Of a DNA stretch of 64,000 nt, positions 22,632-25,160 are shown piece by piece (the first letter of the stretch is position 1; each line of letters starts with the position of its first letter). A model generated the notes under the pieces. The model saw nothing but the letters and a program-made list of their open reading frames with translations, did no database searches and was not told the DNA's origin. This DNA is from Xenophilus sp. Marseille-Q4582 (lineage in GTDB: Bacteria; Pseudomonadota; Gammaproteobacteria; Burkholderiales; Burkholderiaceae_C): assembly GCF_916700565.1 (NCBI RefSeq), contig NZ_CAKAKO010000006.1, forward strand, positions 372,001 to 436,000, written 5' to 3'. The translations under genes and the position numbers were made by a program.

Positions 22632-23144
22632 TCAGCGGTGCAGCAGGGCGATGGCGCGCGCTTGCATCGCCCGGCCCTCGCCCACCGGGCCCAGCTTCTC
22701 GGCCGTCTTGGCCTTGACGTTGACCTGCGCCACGGGCAGGTCCAGCGCCTGCGCGATGCGCGCGCACATGGCCGGAATGTGCGGCGCCAGCTTGGGCGCC
22801 TGCGCGATCACCGTGCTGTCCACATTGCCGATCTGCCACCCCTGGGCGCGCACGCGGCGCGCCGCCTCGGCCAGCAGCACGGTGGAATCGGCGCCGCGGA
22901 ACTGCGGATCGGTGTCGGGAAAGTGGCGGCCGATGTCCCCCAGCCCCGCCGCGCCCAGCAGCGCGTCGGTGATCGCGTGCAGCAGCACGTCCGCGTCCGA
23001 ATGGCCGAGCAGGCCCACGGTGTGCGGAACCTCGACCCCGCCGAGGATCAGCTTGCGGCCGGCGGCCAGTTGGTGAACGTCCCAGCCCTCCCCGACGCGG
23101 ATGGCAAAGGAAGGCGAGGAAGAGGTGTGGGAAGCAGTGGCCAT
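22632..23144 (-). CDS. ispF: 2-C-methyl-D-erythritol 2,4-cyclodiphosphate synthase
   Basis: The product has all IspF marks: metal ligands in GEGWDVHQL (about 18-26), [31 protein letters not shown], and the C-terminal [11 protein letters not shown]. The 170-aa length is normal with a 13-residue Ser/Thr-rich N-terminal addition. It forms MEcPP in the non-mevalonate isoprenoid pathway. It starts 7 bp after ispD ends and is co-transcribed with it. Confidence 0.96.
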
Positions 23145-24029: not shown

Positions 24030-25160
24030 TCAGTCGGCCGCGCGGTCCTGCACGCGGCGGTTCACGTAGCTGGCATTGCCCAGCCCCGTGCCGATGGTCA
24101 GCACCGCCCAGCGCTTGACGTCGCGCATGAAGGGCACTTCGCTCAGGCCCTGCACCACCGCGTCGTTGTGCATCAGCACCTGGGTCGCGTGGCCGTCGAT
24201 GACGGGCAGCGCATCGCGCAGCGCCGTGGGCAGGTGGAAGCTGTCGGCGGCCCAGTTCCCGGGCAGGTTCTGCGCACCGCGCGCAATGCTGCCGTCGGCG
24301 CGGATCAGGCCCGGGCAGGCGATGCCCACGAAGGGCGCCAGGCGCAGCTTGTGGCGCTGGGCCCAGGCGATCTGTTCCTCCAGCAGACGCACCAGGCCCG
24401 CGACCAGGCCGGTGCGGCTGGGGTCGTCGTCGGCATGGCGCCATTTCACCCGGCGCTCCACGCGGGCGCGCGAGAAGTCCGCGGCCTTGTGGCGGCGAAA
24501 GCTCACGATGCCGCAGCGGGCATTGGTGCCGCCCAGGTCGACGGCCAGCAGCGCGTCATGGTGCTCGGTGATCGTGGGCGGCGCGAGATGCACCCAGCCG
24601 ATCAGGCCGCCGTCGTCCACGTCGTGCCGCAGCCGCGCCAGATGCACGGGCAGCTCCGCCGCCTCGCACAGCGCCGCCGCCTGCAGGATGGCGCGCTCGC
24701 CCACGTCGCTTTCCGGAAAGCCGCCGCCGATCACGATGCGCTTGACGCCCTTCCAGCTCTTCTGGCGCATGAAGCGCTGGATGACCTGCGCGAGCTCGAC
24801 GGCGAACTCCTCGATCGCGCCGTGCACGATGTCCGCCGCGGGCGACGCCTTCCTGGCCGCGATGGCCTTGTCGAGCACCTTCTTGCCCAGGGCCGAGGAC
24901 GGGCGCTTGCCCAGCGGGTCGGGCCGGCCTTTCTCGCGATAGCGCCGGCGCCACTCGTCGAGTAAGGCGCGAAAGGCGGTCTGGCTCGCGCGGTCGCCGA
25001 TGAAGCCGTCGGCATCCTCCACTTCCAGGTTGTAGCCCGCGATCTGCACGTGTTCCAGTTCGGTGGCGCCGTGGTGCGCACCCACGATGCTCGGCGGAGG
25101 CGGGGCACGCCGGTTGCGTCTGGCGGCGGCGGGGGGTGCGGGGGCAGCGGTCCTGGGCAT
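24030..25160 (-). CDS. ROK-type sugar kinase with circularly permuted motif order
   Basis: All ROK/ASKHA motifs are present but rotated. The segment that normally ends ROK kinases comes first (HGAIEEFAVELAQVIQRF at 113-130, IVIGGG at 142-147, DGGLIGWVHLAP at 183-194). It is followed by the normal start DLGGTN (208-213), CPG (282-284), NLPGNW (298-303), catalytic HND (331-333) and GTGLG (357-361), where the protein ends. No CxCGxxGC zinc motif is seen. It should phosphorylate a sugar with ATP; glucose is a guess. Start is uncertain: ATG 25160 (376 aa) or 25172. It lies upstream of ispDF. Confidence 0.8.
   Translation of the reverse strand: MPRTAAPAPPAAARRNRRAPPPPSIVGAHHGATELEHVQIAGYNLEVEDADGFIGDRASQTAFRALLDEWRRRYREKGRPDPLGKRPSSALGKKVLDKAIAARKASPAADIVHGAIEEFAVELAQVIQRFMRQKSWKGVKRIVIGGGFPESDVGERAILQAAALCEAAELPVHLARLRHDVDDGGLIGWVHLAPPTITEHHDALLAVDLGGTNARCGIVSFRRHKAADFSRARVERRVKWRHADDDPSRTGLVAGLVRLLEEQIAWAQRHKLRLAPFVGIACPGLIRADGSIARGAQNLPGNWAADSFHLPTALRDALPVIDGHATQVLMHNDAVVQGLSEVPFMRDVKRWAVLTIGTGLGNASYVNRRVQDRAAD

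Follow-up and report, generated by a model that had tools for sequence, protein, structure and literature searches.

The window, meaning the whole stretch of 64,000 nucleotides analysed here, holds an open frame on the minus strand at 24030..25160 that translates into 376 amino acids followed by a stop codon. The product (P0001) carries the motifs of the ROK family in a rotated order, and its parts are assigned as follows, with the basis of each assignment in brackets.

24030..25160, minus strand: circularly permuted ROK-family protein, presumed kinase (translation; collinear relatives)
24897..25097, minus strand: residues 22-88, which would take the place of the ROK stretch separating GTGxG from the helix ahead of GGG (position and length)
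24567..24896, minus strand: residues 89-198, corresponding to the C-terminal part of ROK at profile positions 202-304 of 305 (hhalign)
24720..24731, minus strand: IGGG (144-147), adenosine-type glycine motif (position; conservation of G145-G147)
24597..24617, minus strand: DDGGLIG (182-188) (aligned with the ROK end motif GDSSGVxGAA)
24078..24554, minus strand: residues 203-361, corresponding to the N-terminal part of ROK (Pfam; hhalign)
24522..24539, minus strand: DLGGTN (208-213), phosphate-1 motif (translation; conservation)
24309..24314, minus strand: PG (283-284) (position; conservation)
24252..24269, minus strand: NLPGNW (298-303), which we take to be a sugar-site type motif (position; conservation)
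24162..24167, minus strand: ND (332-333), with D333 as presumed catalytic base (position; conservation)
24078..24092, minus strand: GTGLG (357-361), phosphate-2 motif (position; conservation)

The stop codon lies 15 residues beyond GTGLG. The motifs from IGGG through GTGLG that a preliminary description had read from the translation are all present where it had placed them. Residues 22-88, whose counterpart in ordinary ROK proteins would by position and length be the region of the ExGH and zinc motifs, include the conserved pair H30-G31 and the stretch GFIGDRAS (52-59). Two further minus-strand frames follow the permuted gene, an ispF-like frame at 22632-23144 and an ispD-like frame below about 23900.

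The ROK family (PF00480) comprises glucokinases, N-acetylmannosamine and allose kinases, and regulators. DxGGT serves as the phosphate-1 motif, GTGxG as the phosphate-2 motif, GGG as the adenosine motif and ND as the catalytic motif, and the zinc knuckle CxCGxxGC and the sugar-site motif ExGH are typical of the family. All four of the former motifs are present in the permuted proteins, and their letters are at least 95% conserved among 57 non-redundant family rows, whose pairwise identity goes down to about 44%, with the exception of T212. The same level of at least 95% is reached in these rows by D208, G210, G211, N213, P283, G284, N298, P300, G301 and W303, by N332, D333, G357, T358, G359, G361 and G145-G147, and by D182, G185, L186, G188, H30 and G31. 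CxCGxxGC is visible in the ordinary ROK rows and in the ordinary ROK consensus, and no cysteine of residues 1-200 reaches 95% conservation in the 57 permuted rows. Of ExGH, the pair H30-G31 was invariant in the first alignment of the family and the glutamate was not conserved; H30 may take the role of the ExGH histidine. Since the conserved residues correspond, by analogy with ROK proteins, to the phosphate loops, the adenosine motif and the base, the protein is predicted to be, most likely, an ATP:hexose kinase that is active.

Pfam recognises ROK in residues 205-370, which match positions 2-144 of the 294 in the profile at 25.0 bits, above the gathering cut-off of 22.9 bits; thus only the first half of the ROK domain is recognised, and it stands at the C-terminus of the protein. 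Another family member (L025) falls slightly below the cut-off with 21.4 bits, and among the 59 aligned relatives 57 have a Pfam ROK match with E of at most 0.01. For none of the three Pfam families listed, to E 10, did the best stretch lie within residues 1-200. The NCBIfam model for polyphosphate glucokinase (NF045942) matches residues 205-367 with its positions 3-142 of 242 at 25.1 bits, failing the equivalog cut-off of 250 bits. P0001 is far below the cut-off of both NCBIfam models that it matched. Of all NCBIfam models, the one for allose kinase was matched most often, by 56 of 59 members, followed by those for polyphosphate glucokinase with 49, ROK glucokinase with 46 and N-acetylmannosamine kinase with 24; glucose is predicted as substrate with weak preference. 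A search of the whole genome with PF00480 gave two ordinary ROK genes (L001 and L002) and missed the permuted one. These two belong to the same family in its normal order and have nearly full-length Pfam ROK matches of 203.3 and 137 bits, whereas the permuted gene has a half match. When P0001 was rotated back, its Pfam ROK match extended over positions 2-291 of 294 and rose from 25.0 to 31.4 bits; for the other three of the four family proteins tried, the best stretch of the rotated sequence was still the first half and the gain was only 1.5-1.6 bits.

The order of the two parts was followed through the family with an ordinary-order ROK HMM built from 53 proteins, in which a match starting beyond position 175 counted as the later part. 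The test set consisted of 124 family sequences, near-copies and the gene at 24030-25160 itself included. A match to the ROK C-terminal part lay upstream of the N-terminal part in 124/124 sequences, and when the N part was shuffled ten times the rotated order was seen in 0-4 of the 124 each time, with scores that were all negative. Individually the upstream matches are weak, with a median of 5.1 bits, at least 5 bits in 67/124, at least 10 bits in 21/124 and an i-E below 0.01 in 30/124. With default reporting, the rotated order was found in 98 of 110 family ORFs and any match in 105. Together with the Pfam half match at the C-terminus, these counts bear out the rotated ROK order that had been claimed for the gene.

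Profile-profile comparison of the 57 non-redundant family rows with 53 ordinary ROK rows placed the N half (89-198) on ROK 202-304 of 305 with an hhalign E of 1.7e-7 and a score of 54.3, against a best of 26.6 in 150 column shuffles and 19.4 for the reversed profile. The C half alone corresponded to ROK 5-139 (hhalign E 5.5e-14). Against a doubled ROK profile a single alignment was obtained over columns 89-360 (89-361 in P0001), with E 3.4e-18 and a score of 142.2, running unbroken from the ROK end into the ROK start at about residue 203; taken apart, the two pieces score 94.4 and 55.1. In a rotation scan, where the ROK profile was opened every 15 positions, the score was 142.4 at openings 150, 165, 180 and 195, dropped on either side of these and was 94.4 without rotation, which puts the new chain ends after GTGxG and ahead of the helix that precedes GGG. 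The protein thus shares homology with the C-terminal part of ROK, as seen in the hhalign match and in the 124/124 sequences against 0-4 of 124 shuffled, and it lacks the usual N-to-C order of the ROK parts. Because the order is rotated, the protein is filed as a permuted ROK variant and not as an ordinary member. The proposal of a circular permutation, with the chain opened after GTGxG and the old ends joined near residue 200, is supported by these profiles, in which residues 89-198 lead into the ROK start at about residue 203; a true circular permutation is what the sequence profiles support.

Some comparisons fit less well. Residues 22-88 aligned with ROK over nine columns only (AS.tAF to SGpAl) at E 0.16. 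With two small HMMs, rotation raised the score in 59/59 sequences, with a mean gain of just 2.1 and 1.1 bits, compared with means of -1.4 and -3.0 and largest gains of 8.3 and 6.0 for shuffled copies, and one spanning domain was obtained in merely 7/59 and 1/59 rotated sequences. In a shallower first profile comparison the N half scored 35.9 against ROK and 31.5 against ROK together with six rows resembling polyphosphate glucokinase (PPGK-like), where the best of 200 shuffles was 26.9; when only the six PPGK-like rows were used, the N half had no real match (score 20.0, nine columns). Searches of solved structures with the rotated profile gave weak matches, most of which cover the first half only. 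The best of them, with E 0.0028, is 1woq, a polyphosphate/ATP-glucomannokinase of the branch described by NF045942, and its alignment reaches about 20 residues into the moved part. The N half, found by profiles and not by plain sequence, is on the profile evidence a diverged ROK C-terminal part.

The same architecture is found in other genomes and on plasmids, the survey of the family covering Pseudomonadota genomes and plasmid records. By tblastn (E 1e-3, one genome per species) 458 places were found, of which 80 were examined; ordinary ROK genes may be present among the remaining 378. In the 80 examined relatives most of the query was aligned in the same order, and collinear relatives of nearly full length occur in Xenophilus, Variovorax, Pseudorhodoferax, Pseudacidovorax, Bradyrhizobium, Rhizobium, Sinorhizobium and others. 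The first alignment held 20 relatives that are 52-86% identical to P0001 and keep the order. With a 21-row profile the gene was found in 22/398 Pseudomonadota genomes and in 12/289 genomes of the class to which G048 belongs, with G048, G055 and G159 counted in both sets. Two long permuted copies each are present in two of the 22 genomes, G236 (L113 and L133) and G219 (L116 and L134). Matches were obtained in 206 of 72,556 plasmid records, mostly from Rhizobium (111) and Sinorhizobium (79); in 204 of the 206 the match spans 80% of the query or more. Among the plasmid rows listed (30 per listing of 206) the annotation was "ROK family protein", "glucokinase" (one record), "hypothetical protein" (two) or missing, the last to be read with the incompleteness of the plasmid gene table in mind. 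Two copies are probably decayed: a short match of 36% identity at L216:3001-3390 on a Bradyrhizobium barranii plasmid, and L209, with one in-frame stop.

A search for homologues near ispDF in related genomes had been suggested, and by tblastn of the retrieved flanks with queries from the window this arrangement was seen in just 2/126 loci, L003 and L111, the latter being the gene's own locus; the neighbourhood is uninformative in this respect and the ispDF link was dropped. Clustering of the neighbours at 110 loci gave phospholipase-D-like (47/110) and MetE-like (31/110) families as the commonest, both labelled by eye from sequence fragments, and no neighbour family common to most of these loci; none is put forward as an operon partner. 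In 8 of 14 plasmid loci hand-picked from the 206 records (L197, L198, L199, L200, L213, L214, L217 and L218), and also in L128, the kinase gene has a divergent otsB-like (trehalose-phosphatase) gene as its neighbour; such a gene was found in 0/80 genomic contig loci within the retrieved flanks. The eight plasmid loci come from Rhizobium, from Shinella and from one record that bears the name Roseateles. The otsB-like gene of L197 is annotated as haloacid dehalogenase and was recognised by tblastn. For this group only, the adjacency is a hint of a role in handling trehalose or glucose. A gene for a PPC-type DNA-binding protein adjoins otsB in L198, L200 and L214.

In a tree of 12 rotated rows, 53 ordinary rows and six PPGK-like rows, the permuted rows formed one clade (100/100, from a rough bootstrap) on a long branch of 1.88 changes per column. 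A single origin of the permuted rows is the simplest reading; the place of the clade within ROK is unsettled in this tree, as long branches meet there and the bootstrap is rough.

Very likely the product of the gene is a ROK sugar kinase that has undergone natural circular permutation and that would keep the usual ASKHA fold and transfer phosphate from ATP to a hexose. An ordinary ROK chain would have been opened after the GTGxG hairpin, within the segment that elsewhere bears ExGH and the zinc knuckle, and the old C- and N-termini would have been joined via a short linker near residue 200. The permuted chain would close into the usual two-lobed ASKHA fold, in which DLGGTN and GTGLG may hold the phosphates and GGG the adenosine, with D333 of ND as the base, presumably, by the roles known from ROK kinases. 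Glucose, or a sugar closely resembling it, would be the most likely hexose to receive the phosphate of ATP. The comparisons themselves establish that the order is rotated and conserved, that the 12 rows in the tree form one clade and that the motifs are kept; we infer the fold, activity and substrate, as well as an origin by duplication and trimming. The wider proposal also appears likely, namely that a whole family of active enzymes of the hexokinase fold, present in several proteobacterial lineages, goes back to one permutation in which the chain ends were moved to the sugar-site loop and the zinc knuckle was lost.

Three other explanations were weighed. A protein in which an unrelated N-terminal domain is fused to a truncated half of a ROK kinase, and which therefore needs a partner, would account for the half ROK domain given by Pfam and for residues 22-88, which are unplaced on ROK. 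Residues 89-198, however, match the missing ROK C-terminal part, in order and up to the junction, and no further ROK-matching ORF of at least 120 amino acids (E 1e-3), whether as partner or in tandem, was found in the retrieved flanks of 110 loci. The fusion was rejected on the match of residues 89-198 ending at the junction, and it is very improbable. Still closer to nil is the probability of an assembly error, a frameshift or a pseudogene. Broken copies do exist, isolated elsewhere in the family (L209 and L216), with no sign of damage in the gene at 24030-25160; against such an artefact, the same order recurs in independent genomes and plasmids, and divergence from L003 by codon position is 0.112, 0.077 and 0.285, the third position being highest. 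The independent relatives refute this explanation.

Unlikely, though weightier than these two, is a permuted fold that has lost its kinase activity and acts as a pseudo-kinase that senses sugars or nucleotides. Regulators do occur among ROK proteins, and neither the glutamate of ExGH nor the zinc motif is conserved here; likewise most loci share no neighbour family, the commonest being that of 47/110. On the other side, D208, G210-G211, N332-D333, GTG and GGG are kept at the level of at least 95% in 57 rows diverged down to about 44% identity, and Pfam reports no DNA-binding domain in the 376-residue protein.

The permuted protein resembles the ROK family in its main motifs and in having alignable sequence on either side of the junction. 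It is unlike the family in its rotated order, whose new ends fall after GTGxG and ahead of the helix that precedes GGG, in the lack of conserved zinc cysteines, and in its length, which from residue 22 on exceeds the 302 columns of the ROK alignment by about 50 residues. The six PPGK-like rows are also without the zinc cysteines, themselves falling below the NF045942 cut-off, and the zinc knuckle is thus not defining for the whole ROK family. The polyphosphate/ATP-glucokinase branch is unpermuted and forms a clade separate from the permuted rows. PMC1079889 gives it as a general rule that circular permutation may relate the families of one kinase fold group to each other. In the matched passages of PMC1079889, PMC2213659 and PMC2876114 no permuted ROK kinase is described, and among the titles and abstract openings listed from open PubMed Central text no description of one was found.

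The permuted family is easily mistaken for ordinary ROK members, and some annotations as "ROK family protein" that rest on a half match denote a different architecture. Circular permutations are a test of the chain connections that a fold requires. If the present reading is true, a two-lobed, ATP-driven kinase has been rewired by nature and kept in Burkholderiales- and Rhizobiales-type bacteria, and in an ASKHA enzyme, which works by lobe closure, the closure, subunit contacts or regulation may differ. The family would then be a natural experiment on lobe closure, on folding order and on the role of the ROK zinc knuckle.
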